The position numbers were made by a program, and so were the translations under genes. From a virus: a stretch of 26,901 nucleotides of DNA. How positions within the stretch are numbered: the stretch's first letter is position 1; each line of letters opens with the position of its first letter. The notes beneath the pieces were generated by a model. That model saw only the letters and a list, made by a program, of their open reading frames with translations, ran no database searches and was not told where the DNA came from. This document shows positions 2,176 to 9,801 of the stretch, one piece after another. Where the stretch lies: positions 1 to 26,901 of IMG/VR virus record IMGVR_UViG_3300009163_000150. One strand, 5' to 3'.

Positions 2176-2849
2176 TGGATAAGTTACCGGCGTGGTCGTT
2201 TTCGTCGATTAAGACATTTGAGCAATGCCCCAAGAAGTACTACCACTTGAAGGTGGCCAAGGACTTCAAAGAGCAGGAGACGGAAGCGATGCACTACGGG
2301 ACACGTTTCCACGAGGCGGCTGAGTTCTACATCAAAGATGGCACCCCCCTACCCGAGCCGTTCAAGTTCGCGAAGGGGGCGCTGGATAATCTTAACCAAC
2401 TGCATGGTGAGAAGTTATGCGAGTTCGAGATGGGGCTCACCGAAAACCTTGAGCCGTGCGATTTCAAAGACCCGAACGTGTGGTGGCGAGGTATCGCTGA
2501 CCTAATCATCCTTGACCGAGACAAGGGCGAGGCGCGGGTGCTAGATTACAAAACGGGCAAGTCTGACAAGTACGCTGACAAGGGACAACTTGAACTCATG
2601 GCCTTGGCTATATTCAAGTTCTTTCCCGAGATCAAACGCGTCCGAGGGGGCTTGCTATTCGTCATTGCGCGGTCATTTCCCAAGGCAAATTATTCCAAAG
2701 AAGATGAGCCTGTCTTGTGGCAGAAGTGGCTTAGGGATTATGATCGCATGAAATTTGCGTACACCAGTAATGTGTGGAACCCCCGCCCGTCAGGGCTGTG
2801 TAAGAAACATTGTGTGGTGTTGAGTTGTTCACATAACGGGAGGGCATGA
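2175..2849 (+). CDS. PD-(D/E)XK nuclease, Cas4/RecB-like, with probable Fe-S cysteines
   Basis: This 224-aa protein carries the PDDEXK_1-type pattern: an N-terminal SSIKTFEQCPKKYY helix, GTRFHEAAE, then WWRGIADLIILD with the metal-binding Asp, LDYKTGK with the catalytic D-x-K pattern, and QLELMALAIF. Cys18 plus a C-terminal cluster Cys209, Cys213 and Cys218 resemble the four-cysteine Fe-S latch of Cas4 and AddB. Such enzymes resect or cut DNA during replication, recombination or host DNA degradation; the specific role is inferred. The start is ATG 2175, inside the TAATG overlap with the polymerase stop, with GGAG at 2164-2167. The TTG at 2169 is less likely. The stop overlaps the next gene at 2847-2849. 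Confidence 0.88.
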   Translation: MDKLPAWSFSSIKTFEQCPKKYYHLKVAKDFKEQETEAMHYGTRFHEAAEFYIKDGTPLPEPFKFAKGALDNLNQLHGEKLCEFEMGLTENLEPCDFKDPNVWWRGIADLIILDRDKGEARVLDYKTGKSDKYADKGQLELMALAIFKFFPEIKRVRGGLLFVIARSFPKANYSKEDEPVLWQKWLRDYDRMKFAYTSNVWNPRPSGLCKKHCVVLSCSHNGRA

Positions 2850-3145
2850 TGCCATATACCAAATCACCTAGACCTTACAAACACGAGTACGAGAAACAAA
2901 AAGCGCGGGGCGAACTCGACGAGCGGATGGAACGCCAACGTGCGCGAAGAAAGATGGATGCCAGTTCCCCCGATAAGAATGGGAACGGCAAGGCCGACAA
3001 GCGCGAAGGCAAGGACATTGACCACGTCAAGATGTTATCCAAGGGTGGCTCCAATAAAACGGGCGTACGTCTGCTGACCCCTGCAAAGAACCGAGCACGT
3101 AATGGCCACAGCGTTCGCGAAGCGGGTGGTAAAAAACCTAGTTGA
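2849..3145 (+). CDS. Small HNH-like endonuclease
   Basis: This basic 98-aa protein has a short HNH-like core: DIDHVKMLSKGGSN (D58, H59, N69) followed by RLLTPAKNRARNGH (N81, N85). Small HNH-like proteins with this DH...KGG...N layout are frequent in phage replication modules. The Zn-binding cysteine pairs of classical HNH enzymes are absent. Residues 42-50 (DKNGNGKAD) look superficially like a calcium-binding loop, but this may be a simple linker. ATG 2849 was preferred over ATG 2846 because the strong GGGAGGG at 2838-2844 is then better spaced. Nuclease activity is likely but not certain; a DNA-binding or structural role is possible. Confidence 0.65.
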   Translation: MPYTKSPRPYKHEYEKQKARGELDERMERQRARRKMDASSPDKNGNGKADKREGKDIDHVKMLSKGGSNKTGVRLLTPAKNRARNGHSVREAGGKKPS

Positions 3146-3170
3146 CGACAACGCAATAATGCGGTAGATT
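3142..3170 (+). promoter_or_regulatory. Putative sigma70-like promoter upstream of the helicase gene
   Basis: TTGACG (3142-3147, 5/6 to the -35 consensus) is followed by a 17-nt spacer and TAGATT (3165-3170, 4/6 to the -10 consensus). It overlaps the end of the HNH-like gene and would start transcription near 3177, giving a leader of about 190 nt before the helicase. Confidence 0.5.
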
Positions 3171-3181
3171 AGAATTTAATA

Positions 3182-3211
3182 GAACGGCAGTCAGGTGTGA
3201 GTGTGCCGTTC
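3182..3211 (+). other. Hairpin at the start of the helicase leader
   Basis: GAACGGCA (3182-3189) and TGCCGTTC (3204-3211) form a perfect 8-bp stem with a 14-nt loop, a few bases downstream of the predicted transcription start. There is no U-tract, so it does not look like a terminator. Confidence 0.45.
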
Positions 3212-3214
3212 GGG

Positions 3215-3352
3215 GTGTTTGATGTTGATTGTTTTCAACCCTTTAACCGCACCAGTCAGCATGCGCAAACACTTTCGAGCGTAGGAACTGACAAGAGTAA
3301 GTTGGTATATCGAGCAGATTGGAGACCCCATTCTGCTCGATATGCTTTATAA
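3215..3352 (+). CDS. Possible 45-aa micro-ORF in the helicase leader
   Basis: A frame opening with GTG 3215 runs to TAA 3350-3352 and encodes 45 aa ending KLVYRADWRPHSARYAL, a composition that reads like real protein. No clear Shine-Dalgarno precedes the GTG. The same bases contain a 12-bp inverted repeat, so the signal may be structural RNA rather than protein. An overlapping frame from ATG 3222 (20 aa, ending at 3284, with GGGG upstream) is an alternative leader peptide. I do not recognise either peptide. Confidence 0.25.
   Translation: MFDVDCFQPFNRTSQHAQTLSSVGTDKSKLVYRADWRPHSARYAL
3307..3343 (+). other. Perfect 12-bp inverted repeat just before the helicase start
   Basis: ATATCGAGCAGA (3307-3318) and TCTGCTCGATAT (3332-3343) are exact reverse complements around 13 nt. 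Inside, TGG (3320-3322) and CCA (3328-3330) can pair after a T-T mismatch, leaving a 5-nt loop. The element ends 27 nt before the TTG start. It could be an RNA hairpin controlling helicase translation, an RNase site or a DNA operator. No T-tract follows on either strand, which argues against termination. Confidence 0.6.
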
Positions 3353-3370
3353 AAAATAAGCGAGAACGAA

Positions 3371-4912
3371 TTGGAAATCATAGATAACAAGGCATTGTTG
3401 CTAACACTGCGCAACCCGCAACGTGTTACTACAGTCATTCCGAAGAGCAAAGAACTATCCAACAATCAAGTTGTTGTCAAGTGGGGTTTAGACGAAGCCC
3501 AAGTTCTGCGCAACCTCAAGATCAAAGGGGTGCCTAGTCCCATCTTGGGACAGTACAACTGGCCGGGTCAGTACAAACCCTTTGATCACCAAAAAACAAC
3601 GTCCGCTTTTCTCACCCTCAACAAACGTGCGTTCTGCCTAAACGAGCAGGGCACAGGCAAGACAGGCTCAGTCATTTGGGCGGCAGACTATTTGCTTAAG
3701 CAAAAGCGTATTCGACGTGTGCTAGTGATCTGCCCCTTGTCAATCATGGACTCCGCATGGAGAGCCGACCTATTTAAGTTTGCCATGCACCGCTCGGTGG
3801 ACATTGCTTATGGCGCAAAGAACAAACGCCAAGCCATCATCAACGGCACATCAGAGTTTGTAATCATCAACTACGATGGTGTTGAGATTGTGGCCGATGA
3901 CATATCACGGGGCGGGTTTGACCTGATTGTTGTAGATGAGGCTAATGCTTATAAGAACAGCATGACGAAGCGGTGGAAAGTATTGAACGGCCTTATCAAA
4001 CCCGATACGTGGTTGTGGATGCTAACGGGTACCCCTGCCGCGCAATCCCCCCTTGATGCTTACGGCTTGGCTAAGTTAGTCAACCCCCAAGGTGTGCCAC
4101 GTTTCTTCTCATCCTTTAGGGACATGGTCATGCTCAAGCTGACCAACTTCAAGTGGATGGCTAAAGAGAACGCAACAAACACAGTGTTTAACGCCTTGCA
4201 ACCCGCTATCAGGTTTACCAAGGATGAGTGCCTAGACTTACCGGACATGACGTATGTCAAGCGAACAGTCGAGTTAACCAAGCAACAGCAGAAGTACTAC
4301 GACCTATTAAAGAAGCGCATGGTGGTACAGGCCGCAGGGGAAGATATTACGTCAGTGAATGCTGCCGTGAATATGAGCAAACTCTTACAAATATCTTGTG
4401 GTGCGGTGTACACCGACACGGGCGAAACCGTTGAGTTTGACATCAAGAATCGCTATGCCGTACTGAAAGAAGTTATTGAGGAAGCAAGCCAAAAGGTGCT
4501 GGTGTTTGTGCCCTTTAAAAGCGTGATCACTATCCTGACAGACAAACTCAATGACGAAGGTATTAAGACTGAAGTAATCAGTGGTGATGTGCCTTTGAAC
4601 AAACGCACCGACATCTTTAACAGGTTCCAAACCGACCCCAACGACACACGGGTGCTTGTCATCCAACCTCAGTCAGCCGCCCATGGTGTAACCCTGACAG
4701 CCGCAAACACTGTGGTGTGGTGGGGGCCAACTTCATCCCTTGAGACCTACGCACAAGCCAACGCCCGAGTGCACCGCTCGGGTCAGCGGCACCCAACAAC
4801 AGTGGTACAACTCGTCGGGTCAGGTGTAGAAAGACACGTATACAACTTATTAGATAATAAAATAGACGTTCACACAAAAATAGTTGATCTTTACAAAGAA
4901 ATACTTGAATAA
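3371..4912 (+). CDS. SNF2/DEAD-like superfamily II helicase
   Basis: This 513-aa protein is an SF2 helicase/translocase of the SNF2 type. Visible motifs are DHQ (72-74), Walker A NEQGTGKTG (91-99), motif II VVDEAN (187-192), motif III LTGTPAAQ (218-225), motif V QSAAHGVTLTAA (434-445) and motif VI ARVHRSGQR (465-473). It probably moves along duplex or forked DNA and helps replication or recombination. The start is TTG 3371: no ATG occurs in frame before residue 126, and the bases in front of TTG (GAGAACGAA) match the ribosome-site motif of the genes at 4964 and 5641. The gene follows a structured leader and promoter, and its 3' end contains the -35 box of the next promoter. Confidence 0.9.
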   Translation: MEIIDNKALLLTLRNPQRVTTVIPKSKELSNNQVVVKWGLDEAQVLRNLKIKGVPSPILGQYNWPGQYKPFDHQKTTSAFLTLNKRAFCLNEQGTGKTGSVIWAADYLLKQKRIRRVLVICPLSIMDSAWRADLFKFAMHRSVDIAYGAKNKRQAIINGTSEFVIINYDGVEIVADDISRGGFDLIVVDEANAYKNSMTKRWKVLNGLIKPDTWLWMLTGTPAAQSPLDAYGLAKLVNPQGVPRFFSSFRDMVMLKLTNFKWMAKENATNTVFNALQPAIRFTKDECLDLPDMTYVKRTVELTKQQQKYYDLLKKRMVVQAAGEDITSVNAAVNMSKLLQISCGAVYTDTGETVEFDIKNRYAVLKEVIEEASQKVLVFVPFKSVITILTDKLNDEGIKTEVISGDVPLNKRTDIFNRFQTDPNDTRVLVIQPQSAAHGVTLTAANTVVWWGPTSSLETYAQANARVHRSGQRHPTTVVQLVGSGVERHVYNLLDNKIDVHTKIVDLYKEILE

Positions 4913-6661: not shown

Positions 6662-9514
6662 ATGGAAACTAAAACATTTTTGGAGACAGTGTTGGGAGAC
6701 GCTGGGTTCTACTGCGTCTTTGCGGGTCGTTTATCGGACGAACGTAAAGTGCAGAAGTTCTACAGTTCTCTTGATGAAGTCATCCATGCCGCCCACAATT
6801 TGGACAATGAAGGTTATGACGCTTATTTTGCACTCGGTACGTTTGAAGAGGCAGGGTCTCGTAAAGTACCCAACGTAAAACAACTTAGGTCGTTCTTCCT
6901 AGATTTAGACTGTGGGCCGTCAAAGGACTACGAAACACAGGCAGACGCGTTACTAGCACTACGCACGTTCTGCAAAACAGTAAGATTACCGAAGCCAACA
7001 CTCGTAAACTCAGGGCGTGGTATCCACGTGTACTGGCCACTGACCGAATCTGTTTCACGTGAAACATGGATTCCTGTTGCGGAGCGGTTCAAAAGACTAT
7101 GCCGTGAACACAATATGTATGGTGACCCTGCGGTTACTGCTGACGCGGCTCGGGTGCTTAGAGTTCCCCTGACGCACAATCACAAAGACACCCCGCCGAA
7201 AGCTGTGGTGTTTATCGGCTCCCCTGCCGACCCAATCCCGTTTGAGTTGTTCTGCAACTTGATCGGAGATGATGAGGTGCCGCCCGTATCCAAGAAGTAT
7301 GCGCCCCGTGAAGCGGACGCAATGATGCAAGCCCTGTCGGGTAGTTACATCAGCCGCTTTAAAACTATCCTGATTAAGACTCAGGCAGGTAGCGGGTGTG
7401 CGCAGATTGGCGAAGCGGTGATGAATCAAAACAACATCTCTGAACCACTGTGGCGAGCCGCATTATCTATTGCTAAGTTCTGTGTTGATGGAGGTAAAGC
7501 CATCCACAAGATTTCATGCAATCATGAGGAATACACTGCCGAGCGTACCGAAGCCAAGGTTGACCTGATCAAAGGCCCATACCTGTGCGAACGCTTTGAT
7601 GAGTACCGCCCTGATGTCTGCACGAACTGTCAACATTGGGGCAAGATTAAGTCACCCATTTCGCTTGGGCGAGAAGTACAGGAGGCTGAGGAAGAAGATA
7701 ACGTAGTGGTGCAAAAGCCGCTAGGTATCCACAACGCAACCCCTATTAAGTACAACATACCTAAGTACCCCCACCCGTATTTCCGTGGGAAGAATGGTGG
7801 AGTGTTCAAGCACTCCAAGAACGCTGAAGGCGAAGACAAAGACGTCATGGTTTATTTCAATGACTTGTATGTTGTACGTCGACTTAAAGACCCCGAGATG
7901 GGCGAAGCGTTAGTGATGAGGTTGCACCTGCCAAGGGACGGGGTACGTGAGTTTACGTTGCCTCTGACTGCGGTGGGAACTAAAGATGAGTTCAGAAAAT
8001 ACTTAGCCTCGCATGGCGTTGCCGTCTTGAACGTAGGCGAATTAATGGAGTACACAATGAGATGGGTAAACGAGTTACAGTTTACGGCTGAAGCTGACGA
8101 AGCGCGTAGACAATTTGGTTGGACAGATGACAAGGGTACGTCCTTTTGCCTTGGCAATATGGAAGTGTTCAAAGATCGCGTTGAGATCAATTCACCTTCG
8201 AGTGCAACTGCGGGTCTATTCCCTGCCTTCAACCCAAAAGGTTCGTTGGAAGAGTGGAAGAAAACCATGTCGTTCTACAACAAGCCCGGTATGGAGATGC
8301 ACCAGTTCATAGTTGGTATGTCATTCGGTGCGGTGTTGATGGAGTTTCAACCAATCAATGCGGCGGCGTTTCACATATACAGTAAAGGCTCCGGTCTTGG
8401 TAAAACAACAGCAATGTTGGCAGGTGCCTCAATATGGGGTGACCCTGAACTGACCATGCTCCAAGAGCGTGATACGTACAACTCAAAGATGAATCGCGCT
8501 GAGGTCTACAAAAACCTATGCGTGTACATGGACGAGATGACTAACACCGCACCGAAAGACCTGTCTGACTTTGCCTATCAACTTCCTAGTGGTATGCAAC
8601 GAAACCGCATGGGGCCTAAAGGTAACGTTGAGCGGGTACGTGGTAAGCCATGGAAAACTTTGTTTGGTACGACAGGTAATACCAGCATGATTGAGCGTAT
8701 CGCGTTGTATAAGGCTCTGCCACAAGCGGAAGCCCAACGGGTATTGGAATACAAAGCCATACCTGTCAACTTTGAAACCAAGGAAGAGACAGACAAGTTC
8801 AGTGCCGCAATCAAGGAACACTACGGGGTGGCGGCTGTACCTTATCTCCAGTACATCATGAATAATCTGGAGCCGGTAAAAGAACTTGCCCTGACAACTC
8901 AACGCAAGATTGACATAGCGGCTGGCCTCAAAGCCGATAACCGCTTTTGGTCTGTCTTAGCATCACGCTCGATCACTGGCCTGATGTTGGGTAAGAAGAT
9001 GGGTTTGCTTGATTGGCAGATTGCACCAATCGTGCAGTGGATTATCAAGGTCATGCAAGACGCGCGTACCGACATGGCCGAGATGGGTGTTGATGTTGAA
9101 AGCATTCTGACAGACTTCTTGGCTGACCACTACAACGGCATCCTGCGTATCAAGAGTACGGATGATGCACGTAAACAAGCAACAGGGTTAGATCATCTGA
9201 TTCATCCCGAAGCCGTACCACGAATGAACTTTGTGGCTCGGTACGAGTACGACATTAAAAGGTTGTACCTTCTGCCCAAGCCGCTCAAAGAGTGGTGCGG
9301 TAAACAACAGATCAACTATGGTGGGTTTGTTGATGGCCTAAAAACAGGACGCACGAAAGCAAAGAAGGAAAAGGTTCGTTTGGGTAAAGGCACCCATTCC
9401 AACTGGCCACCAGTCGATGCAATTACTGTGGACTGCTCATCATTTATGGACGATGAAACTGAGCAAAGTATGGCGACAACCGCCGCGCTCTTCCAAAAAC
9501 AGGCTACACCTTGA
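6662..9514 (+). CDS. Primase-helicase: AEP primase fused to DUF927-like ATPase
   Basis: This 950-aa protein probably makes primers and unwinds DNA at the fork. The N-terminal archaeo-eukaryotic primase region has FFLDLDCG (metal-binding D81, D83), VNSGRGIHVYWPL (H122) and DAARVLR (D161). A putative Zn-binding segment follows (C309, C320, C323, H325 in VCTNCQHWGKIKSP). The C-terminal DUF927-like P-loop ATPase has Walker A SKGSGLGKTT (574-583), Walker B CVYMDEM (D624, E625) and a sensor-like FGTTGN (668-673). Primase-helicase fusions of this order are widespread in phages and plasmids. The ATG has only a weak GGCGGA upstream, so translation may depend on the leader structure before it. Confidence 0.9.
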   Translation: METKTFLETVLGDAGFYCVFAGRLSDERKVQKFYSSLDEVIHAAHNLDNEGYDAYFALGTFEEAGSRKVPNVKQLRSFFLDLDCGPSKDYETQADALLALRTFCKTVRLPKPTLVNSGRGIHVYWPLTESVSRETWIPVAERFKRLCREHNMYGDPAVTADAARVLRVPLTHNHKDTPPKAVVFIGSPADPIPFELFCNLIGDDEVPPVSKKYAPREADAMMQALSGSYISRFKTILIKTQAGSGCAQIGEAVMNQNNISEPLWRAALSIAKFCVDGGKAIHKISCNHEEYTAERTEAKVDLIKGPYLCERFDEYRPDVCTNCQHWGKIKSPISLGREVQEAEEEDNVVVQKPLGIHNATPIKYNIPKYPHPYFRGKNGGVFKHSKNAEGEDKDVMVYFNDLYVVRRLKDPEMGEALVMRLHLPRDGVREFTLPLTAVGTKDEFRKYLASHGVAVLNVGELMEYTMRWVNELQFTAEADEARRQFGWTDDKGTSFCLGNMEVFKDRVEINSPSSATAGLFPAFNPKGSLEEWKKTMSFYNKPGMEMHQFIVGMSFGAVLMEFQPINAAAFHIYSKGSGLGKTTAMLAGASIWGDPELTMLQERDTYNSKMNRAEVYKNLCVYMDEMTNTAPKDLSDFAYQLPSGMQRNRMGPKGNVERVRGKPWKTLFGTTGNTSMIERIALYKALPQAEAQRVLEYKAIPVNFETKEETDKFSAAIKEHYGVAAVPYLQYIMNNLEPVKELALTTQRKIDIAAGLKADNRFWSVLASRSITGLMLGKKMGLLDWQIAPIVQWIIKVMQDARTDMAEMGVDVESILTDFLADHYNGILRIKSTDDARKQATGLDHLIHPEAVPRMNFVARYEYDIKRLYLLPKPLKEWCGKQQINYGGFVDGLKTGRTKAKKEKVRLGKGTHSNWPPVDAITVDCSSFMDDETEQSMATTAALFQKQATP

Positions 9515-9716
9515 CGATCTTGCACCCGATGGGGTGCGGTTTGTCCTTGATTGGGATAACTTCCCGATAGGTGGGTCTGTGTTTATACCATGTATAAACA
9601 CCTTGGAGTGCGTGCGGCAGGTCTATGATATTACCCAAAGACGTTATTGGGTGGTGGAATACCGTCCCCGTATTGAGGATAGCAGGTGGGGGGTTCGCAT
9701 TTGGAGACGACTGTGA
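9453..9716 (+). CDS. Small conserved-looking phage protein, start uncertain
   Basis: The frame ending at TGA 9714-9716 encodes DGVRFVLDWDNFPIGGSVFI, then PCINT, and closes with RIEDSRWGVRIWRRL. This pattern (a basic-aromatic end after FxPCxxT) recalls small uncharacterised phage proteins, and the codons read like coding sequence beyond the primase stop. The start is unclear: ATG 9453 (used here, 87 aa) or ATG 9417 overlap the primase gene without a good Shine-Dalgarno, while GTG 9534 would give 60 aa. Translation may rely on ribosomes finishing the primase gene. Function unknown; this is the last gene before the terminator. Confidence 0.55.
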   Translation: MKLSKVWRQPPRSSKNRLHLDDLAPDGVRFVLDWDNFPIGGSVFIPCINTLECVRQVYDITQRRYWVVEYRPRIEDSRWGVRIWRRL

Positions 9717-9770: not shown

Positions 9771-9801
9771 ATCCCCCGCCCTAATAAGCGGGGGATTTTT
9801 T
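9771..9801 (+). terminator. Intrinsic terminator of the + strand gene block
   Basis: ATCCCCCGC (9771-9779) and GCGGGGGAT (9788-9796) form a perfect 9-bp GC-rich stem with an 8-nt loop, followed by six T (9796-9801). It sits between the convergent + and - gene blocks; the T-run reaches into the stop codon of the 2092-aa gene. On the - strand no T-run follows the stem, so it should mainly end + strand transcription. Confidence 0.9.

Follow-up and report, generated by a model that had tools for sequence, protein, structure and literature searches.

The EAR/epsC motif is an RNA that is positioned inside an operon and has a role in antitermination. In phage HK022 the put RNA lies inside the early transcript, downstream of a promoter, and works on E. 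coli RNA polymerase, which it binds to suppress termination. The main text of the source describes put as two stem-loops of ~70 nucleotides (nt) that occur twice per genome, as putL and putR, and does not name a pseudoknot (PMC9378689). EAR/epsC is listed as a predicted pseudoknot RNA of exopolysaccharide synthesis genes in B. subtilis and relatives, STAXI as a pseudoknot RNA near genes for DNA-binding or DNA-manipulating products with tandem pseudoknots in two or usually three copies, and manA and wcaG as structured RNAs of marine metagenomes that are also found in cyanophages, next to sugar, nucleotide or photosynthesis genes and to exopolysaccharide or high-light genes (as described in PMC2864571). 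Here, we report an RNA located upstream of a helicase gene in the virus record IMGVR_UViG_3300009163_000150 of IMG/VR, a contig of 26.9 kilobases (kb) of which the whole stretch analyzed, positions 1 to 26,901 (26,901 nt), is called the window.

The gap in front of this helicase gene very probably encodes, on the + strand, a conserved structured RNA composed of a stem P1, a pseudoknot and a domain P3. It would share with put the place of a phage RNA element inside an early transcript downstream of a promoter, but it does not have the make-up of two stem-loops of ~70 nt lacking a pseudoknot. With EAR/epsC and STAXI it has the pseudoknot in common, and with STAXI also the neighborhood of genes acting on DNA; in contrast to STAXI it was found as one match per record (14 of 30 whole virus records) instead of in tandem, and it carries P3. 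No Rfam match relates the window element to EAR/epsC, STAXI, manA or wcaG. The family is missing from Rfam 15 though it recurs across divergent uncultivated phages, and the apparently empty 225-nt gap of a compact phage genome would thereby hold an RNA rather than a peptide. The alignment (A1) and covariance model (R1) with a supported pseudoknot, and close relatives with and without the RNA, provide a natural experiment on a possible control of phage replication genes by RNA.

Architecture of the RNA

The initial annotation had placed a promoter, an 8-base-pair (bp) hairpin, a perfect 12-bp inverted repeat and a frame of 45 amino acids (aa) before the helicase, and all four are present there. 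It had overlooked a pairing between positions 3246-3253 and the 8-bp hairpin's loop, as well as the two-part stem (3255-3292) that follows. P1, which is the 8-bp hairpin, crosses this long-range helix, resulting in an H-type pseudoknot, and P1, pseudoknot and P3 together comprise about 110 nt. The two hairpins that had been taken for parts of one leader are thus both real but belong to different structures: P1 is part of the pseudoknotted RNA, while the 12-bp repeat forms a separate hairpin. The parts of the RNA, all on the + strand, are:

3173-3293, conserved pseudoknotted RNA, extent of the covariance model R1
3182-3189, P1 5' arm GAACGGCA, first arm of the 8-bp hairpin
3190-3193, unpaired linker GUNA (GUCA in the window), alignment columns 18-21
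3194-3202, pseudoknot 5' strand GGUGUG-a-GU, pairing through 3194-3199 and 3201-3202, with bulged purine 3200
3204-3211, P1 3' arm TGCCGTTC, as RNA UGCCGUUC, second arm of the 8-bp hairpin
3212-3245, variable connector, in many members with a possible local hairpin P2 (GGGU/ACCC in the window), assigned by eye
3246-3253, pseudoknot 3' strand AC-CGCACC, pairing with the P1 loop
3255-3259, P3a 5' arm GUCAG, partner CUGAC at 3288-3292
3262-3266, P3b 5' arm UGCGC, partner GCGUA at 3279-3283
3267-3278, pyrimidine-rich P3 loop, which holds CUUUC
3279-3292, P3b 3' arm, conserved GGAA and P3a 3' arm

On the + strand, positions 3176-3375 fold with -65.6 kcal/mol (z = -4.2; none of 200 shuffles was as low). 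R1 scores the window copy with 78.3 bits (E = 2.4e-21), the window row being among the 46 from which R1 was built. The folded gaps of relatives show a recurring pattern, i.e., a variable P1 stem with GUNAGGYRYGRGUG in its loop and, further 3', YRYRCC after AAC followed by AGUCRGCAY-stem-CUUUC-stem-GGGAACYGAC. In the linker U19 and A21 are invariant and G18 is nearly so, A21 having belonged to the expression by which rows were picked.

In loci of a second clade, termed class II (L150, L195, L204, L220, and others), an extra hairpin, P4, is present 3' of P3. Its stem varies and its loop reads either GAAAGA/GAGAGA, which is complementary to CUUUC of the P3 loop, or ACGNNAC, the latter also occurring in L097 and L084. 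A kissing interaction of the P3 loop CUUUC with the GAAAGA/GAGAGA loop was considered and rejected, as it fails in members with other P4 loops.

Covariation and the nature of the conserved element

Relatives were collected by a helicase scan, from whose 597 relatives the top 80 were kept (71-100% identity in the best-matching segment), and further copies by DNA-pattern scans of a viral collection that were blind to location (three of the four viral scans that supplied loci). Alignment A1 contains 46 deduplicated sequences, all selected with an expression that describes the P1 loop; 33 of these rows were brought in by patterns that demanded P3a letters, and the other 13, i.e., the window and helicase-scan sequences, are free of RNA pattern scans. 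RNAalifold proposed, unprompted, the helix GGYRYG-r-GU/AC-YRYRCC together with P3a and P3b, with changes on both sides in 13 of 18 pairs. For the full structure, from which the connector and P2 were left out since the connector does not align, 86.2% of 1370 cells are paired, compared to 65.6 ± 0.8% in shuffled alignments and 28.6-41.6% after the partners had been displaced by 1-3 columns (slid controls). Covariation scores 0.541 in the alignment, whereas the shuffled controls give 0.183 ± 0.010 and the slid ones no more than 0.126. Changes on both sides are seen in 25 of the 30 pairs. Kinship can inflate the shuffled controls; the slid controls retain it. The compensatory base changes that the initial annotation had proposed to look for in aligned relatives were therefore found for the stems, above both kinds of control.

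The helices contribute differently. P1 (helix 1) is paired in 68.6% of cells, a count lowered by an offset of four positions in class II (by eye), and all 12 of its column pairs show changes on both sides. The pseudoknot (helix 2) is paired in 99.2% of cells, with four of eight pairs changed on both sides and four invariant. P3a (helix 3) reaches 99.6%, four of its five pairs being changed on both sides, likewise four of five in the 13 unselected rows, and P3b (helix 4) 93.5% with changes on both sides in all five. Without any structure given, an average-corrected G statistic over 3959 column pairs ranked proposed pairs at positions 1 to 7, and 14 of the top 20 are proposed pairs. Support for P3a, including rank 3 (columns 95/139), is partly built in because the patterns demanded its letters. 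The 13 unselected rows taken alone show 85.9% pairing (68.0% shuffled, at most 43.8% slid) and 77 cells changed on both sides (27.0 shuffled, none of 500 shuffles as high). Per helix they show 98.5% vs. 82.5% shuffled for P3a, 92.3% vs. 56.5% for P3b and 82.7% vs. 52.5% for the P1 core, in each case with none of 500 shuffles as high. At rank 8 of the 3959 are columns 28 and 85, where the bulged purine covaries with the neighboring pair (A with C, G with U); this may reflect a register shift or a base triple.

That the structure acts as DNA, i.e., as replication origin, protein operator or single-strand promoter, appears very improbable. The element adjoins replication genes and many of the promoter spacers contain a dyad, as might be expected of such a site; G-U pairs are frequent in the alignment (G-U at columns 27/85 in 19 of 46 rows, U-G at 26/86 in 11 and U-G at 103/129 in 14), and therefore the + strand is the RNA, as these strand-asymmetric pairs would be A-C mismatches on the other strand. 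A pseudoknot with a bulge also points to RNA.

A short peptide of 45-51 aa, which the initial annotation had offered as one option, has next to no likelihood. A GTG frame is open at 3197-3352 (51 aa; an internal GTG at 3215 gives the 45 aa), but in 14 sequences with helicases at least 96% identical, the window included, this frame ends after 23 to 54 codons and breaks mostly via insertions or deletions near the P3 loop. The longest minus-strand frame of these sequences varies as well (23-46 aa), and it is base pairs that are conserved.

Distribution and association with the helicase

Applied to the 80 helicase-scan loci, R1 gave scores above 50 bits in 17. L018, L019, L020, and L077 score 17-21 bits; by eye they retain P1 and the pseudoknot while P3 is not recognizable, so that the two domains may be separable. 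With at least 50 bits, 116 of 253 loci and the window match, i.e., 117 matches (eight contigs counted twice) representing 75 distinct RNA sequences. Each of the 117 is followed, on its own strand, by the start of the same SNF2-type helicase at a distance of 59-239 nt (median 68). By open reading frame (ORF) calls, the gap before the helicase is 0 to 318 nt in relatives, a few values being distorted by spurious ORFs.

In a FastTree helicase tree of 131 proteins, 79 of them with the RNA (four partial), nine changes suffice to explain its presence and absence, and each half of the midpoint-split tree has members with the RNA. This suggests that the association of RNA and helicase is old and was later lost repeatedly; the tree does not prove the direction.

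The divergent copies, few and less certain, differ among each other. The RNA shared by L097 and L109 scores 28.8 bits and has eight of eight pseudoknot pairs (p = 0.009); in the record of L109 a helicase with 57% identity lies about 12 kb from the RNA, whose neighbor is a pyrimidine-dimer-glycosylase-like gene. L084 (25.1 bits) lies between a DNA ligase and a Tad2-like gene and has a weak pseudoknot (seven of eight pairs, p = 0.20). A helicase search in the records of L084 and L097 found none. L129 (29.8 bits) shows P3 only, the pseudoknot not being found (p = 0.88); its neighbors are small ORFs of unknown function, and a helicase with 44% identity lies about 12 kb from the RNA. L240 is a doubtful candidate with 26.0 bits. 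All divergent matches came from patterns that demanded P3 letters, and therefore their scores are partly due to selection. The weak matches L194, L203, and L221 were judged by eye from the alignments to be chance.

Two side observations concern these copies. In L266 (1989-2261 and 2311-2403) about 50 nt separate the L084 copy of the RNA from the Tad2-like (Thoeris anti-defence) gene downstream of it. In L129 ARAGORN predicts a transfer RNA (tRNA), tRNA-Ala (tgc), at 7314-7409, about 175 nt after the divergent copy.

Promoter, flanking hairpin and candidate modes of action

The RNA is flanked by the following features, all on the + strand:

2846-3145, 99-aa upstream ORF without a Pfam hit, phrog_4590 (function unknown)
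3142-3170, sigma-70-type promoter TTGACG-N17-TAGATT, hexamers at 3142-3147 and 3165-3170
3152-3163, dyad CGCA-ATAA-TGCG in the promoter spacer
3304-3346, hairpin with a perfect 12-bp core (3307-3318/3332-3343), ending 24 nt before the helicase start
3371-4912, SNF2-type helicase gene with TTG start, Pfam SNF2-rel_dom and Helicase_C, phrog_62

The non-coding gap proper, between the 99-aa ORF and the helicase, is 3146-3370 (225 nt), since the upstream ORF has its stop codon within the first promoter hexamer. We tentatively favor, with a confidence that stays just short of even, that the RNA acts in cis as a leader or intercistronic control RNA of the phage replication operon, a proposal drawn from sequence comparison. 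In the window the -10 element of the putative promoter ends 12 nt before P1, and from this position the helicase messenger RNA (mRNA) would have the RNA as its 5' leader. In class II it would lie inside a polycistronic mRNA, with the upstream ORF before it and the helicase after it. The folded RNA would be bound by a ligand or by a protein of phage or host, for which RNA polymerase and a ribosomal component are possible candidates, with the GUNA linker, the bulged purine, the C/U-rich P3 loop and the GGAA internal loop as candidate recognition features, and binding would set the output of the helicase and of the downstream replication products. In the class II sequences inspected, P1 begins soon after the upstream stop codon, and therefore the RNA is probably co-transcribed there.

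The main rival is a trans-acting phage small RNA that is transcribed from its own promoter or cut from the operon mRNA and pairs with mRNAs or binds a host protein; given the promoter, the hairpin and the divergent copies at other places, we regard this as possible, if rather less than probable. The P3 loop, 78% pyrimidine and with UUUC or CUUU in 41 of the 46 members, could then serve as a seed for pairing with host or phage mRNAs. The promoter bears on both proposals. By number alone such sites are unremarkable (12 promoter-like sites in 12 kb vs. 11.8 expected in shuffles). Scoring for sigma-70-type sites only, with each sequence compared to its own 100 shuffles, 24 of 50 sequences have a promoter-like pair of at least 9.5 in front of the RNA, and these include every one of the 10 with a helicase more than 80% identical to that of the window; the mean over all 50 is 7.8 vs. 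7.1 shuffled. Scores are no better than shuffled in class II (L135, L150, L151, L169, L174, L195, L205, L227, and others) and in the AT-rich members L061, L069, L085, L103, L141, L170, L222, and L223. The promoter of the initial annotation thus recurs in the nearest relatives but does not extend to class II, and its suggestion of a control element or small RNA is borne out by this recurrence and by the conserved fold with compensatory changes. A stand-alone small RNA gene would have its own promoter in all members, not in 24 of 50. TTGAC-type promoters also precede the helicase in the RNA-less relatives L010, L012-L017, L021, L023, L026, and L028.

The second feature that bears on both proposals is the hairpin before the helicase, whose 12-bp repeat is reported as 16-nt arms at 94% and which does not overlap P3 in the sequences inspected. 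In the window it is terminator-like, yet only 3 of the next 8 nt are T. Strong hairpins of RNA-bearing sequences are followed on average by 3.0 T in 8 nt, with at least 4 T in 25 of 58 as a terminator of a small RNA would have it, but the mean is alike without the RNA (2.9), and hairpins also precede the helicase in RNA-less relatives (e.g., L010-L016, L021, L022, L040, L064, L066, and L081). In class I as many as 5 of the 8 nt after the hairpin are T (e.g., L045). In 23 rows with helicases 65-67% identical, 0-2 T of 8 follow in 22, and the hairpin ends exactly 21 nt before the start codon in 19. As class II sequences show neither promoter signal nor U tract, the RNA is there most simply part of the helicase-bearing mRNA, which disfavors a trans-acting RNA, as does the fact that strong copies all adjoin the helicase. 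Members may differ in this respect, the hairpin forming the 3' end of the RNA itself in some and belonging to the leader in others.

Several results weigh against a cis-acting leader or against the fold on which it is based. A strong hairpin is found in 58 of 78 RNA-bearing but in 9 of 56 RNA-less sequences, and for gaps of at least 40 nt the folding z is -2 or lower in 19 of 20 with the RNA vs. 16 of 29 without; the hairpin being commoner with the RNA, it fits a terminator that belongs to the RNA, as the trans-acting alternative would have it. The same helicase lacks the RNA in many relatives, including 16 of the 30 whole virus records, which were chosen and not random, the RNA-less ones partly for missing the RNA beside the helicase. 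Divergent copies with 25-30 bits in R1 lie away from the helicase in other gene contexts, which a trans-acting RNA would allow, and in L097 the RNA is followed by a terminator-like stem and a promoter-like sequence (by eye). As to base-pair switching, the one pairing scored was that of the P3 loop with the ribosome-binding site, and it is no stronger than with the sites of other phages (-4.46 vs. -4.30 kcal/mol permuted, p = 0.23). Finally, the pseudoknot helix alone has only moderate support in the 13 unselected rows: pairing is 98.1% vs. 94.9% shuffled, a value reached by 9 of 500 shuffles, and changes on both sides occur in 5 cells vs. 2.3, reached by 7 of 500. Over all 46 rows it reaches 99.2% vs. 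95.2% shuffled, with 20 vs. 5.9 cells changed on both sides (0 of 500); its pairing was demanded by no pattern.

Processive antitermination in the manner of HK022 put or Bacillus EAR, by which the nascent RNA would act on RNA polymerase and allow readthrough of operon terminators, is improbable in our view. In a long operon the RNA has a promoter on one side and a terminator-like hairpin on the other, and such elements need no set downstream gene, in agreement with the divergent contexts; putL (~70 nt) is described just downstream of an early promoter and putR ~270 nt downstream (PMC9378689). But put differs in its two stem-loops, the Rfam families do not match the element, and terminator-like sites in the window's gene block before 9771-9796 are modest (e.g., 9520-9539) in a simple scan.

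A further-reaching proposal is that a compact pseudoknot domain and a receptor-like P3 domain constitute a phage RNA of a new class, which would sense a protein or ligand in infected cells and control the genes of phage DNA replication; this is possible, though less than probable. If true, the divergent copies at the ligase/Tad2-like and glycosylase-like genes would represent one sensor that serves different early genes, similar to a riboswitch.

Two variable elements flank the RNA. Promoters of the type TTGAC-N16/18-TA...T within 420 nt before the helicase have 42 distinct spacers, some of which may be chance. Several are without a dyad; in others the sequence varies between phages while the palindrome is kept, e.g., GTAGCGC-GACA-GCGCTAC in L009 and GCGCACC-GATT-GGTGCGC in L018. 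The mean stem is 4.0 bp vs. 3.0 shuffled over the 42 distinct promoters, with at least 5 bp in 13, and the dyad may be a fast-evolving operator. The hairpin before the helicase often has a GGAGACC or GGACACC loop on unrelated stems, also in some RNA-less relatives, and is possibly a protein-binding, terminator or mRNA-protecting element.

Searches for described relatives

The RNA family is apparently undescribed and one of uncultivated phages. With Rfam 15 (4227 families) the window gave no match at the gathering threshold; at relaxed E the best sub-threshold match at the element was MIR6288 (E = 8) on the 12-bp repeat, and 18 relatives gave nothing at the element up to E = 3. Against 50,697 isolate phage records, megablast of 3 kb and sensitive blastn with four RNA-bearing queries found no copy and gave only short pieces (E = 0.07-0.9). 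A piece in Xanthomonas phage FoX2 was rejected, as R1 with filters off gave no copy (best 6.5 bits, E = 0.086). FoX2 (L269) has two class II P4-like hairpins, GACA-stem-GGAAAGAC-stem, at 1516-1535 and 1880-1898, without the rest of the RNA and in a region with an annotated tRNA-Leu. Blastn of one query against plasmids gave one short piece (E = 0.8), and R1 found no copy in four whole isolate phages out of the ten with the nearest helicases (38-40% identity). A scan of the genomes of 84,980 bacterial species with one pattern gave six matches. R1 gave a score for two of them alone, L252 (20.0 bits, E = 0.003), which does not have the full architecture, and L256 (13.2 bits, E = 0.29), and we took both for chance matches. 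In the open-licence text of PubMed Central no paper on this RNA was found.

Gene neighborhood

The 99-aa upstream ORF carries the working label HNH, which is our assumption. The helicase is part of one block of + strand genes that extends to near 9514 and contains a family A DNA polymerase, a PD-(D/E)XK exonuclease and a DUF927 primase/helicase-like protein. A tRNA search of the window found none. Where the two gene blocks converge, the window has a perfect inverted repeat of 10 bp (9579-9601) and a terminator-like hairpin of 9 bp (9771-9796), after which TTTTTATT follows.
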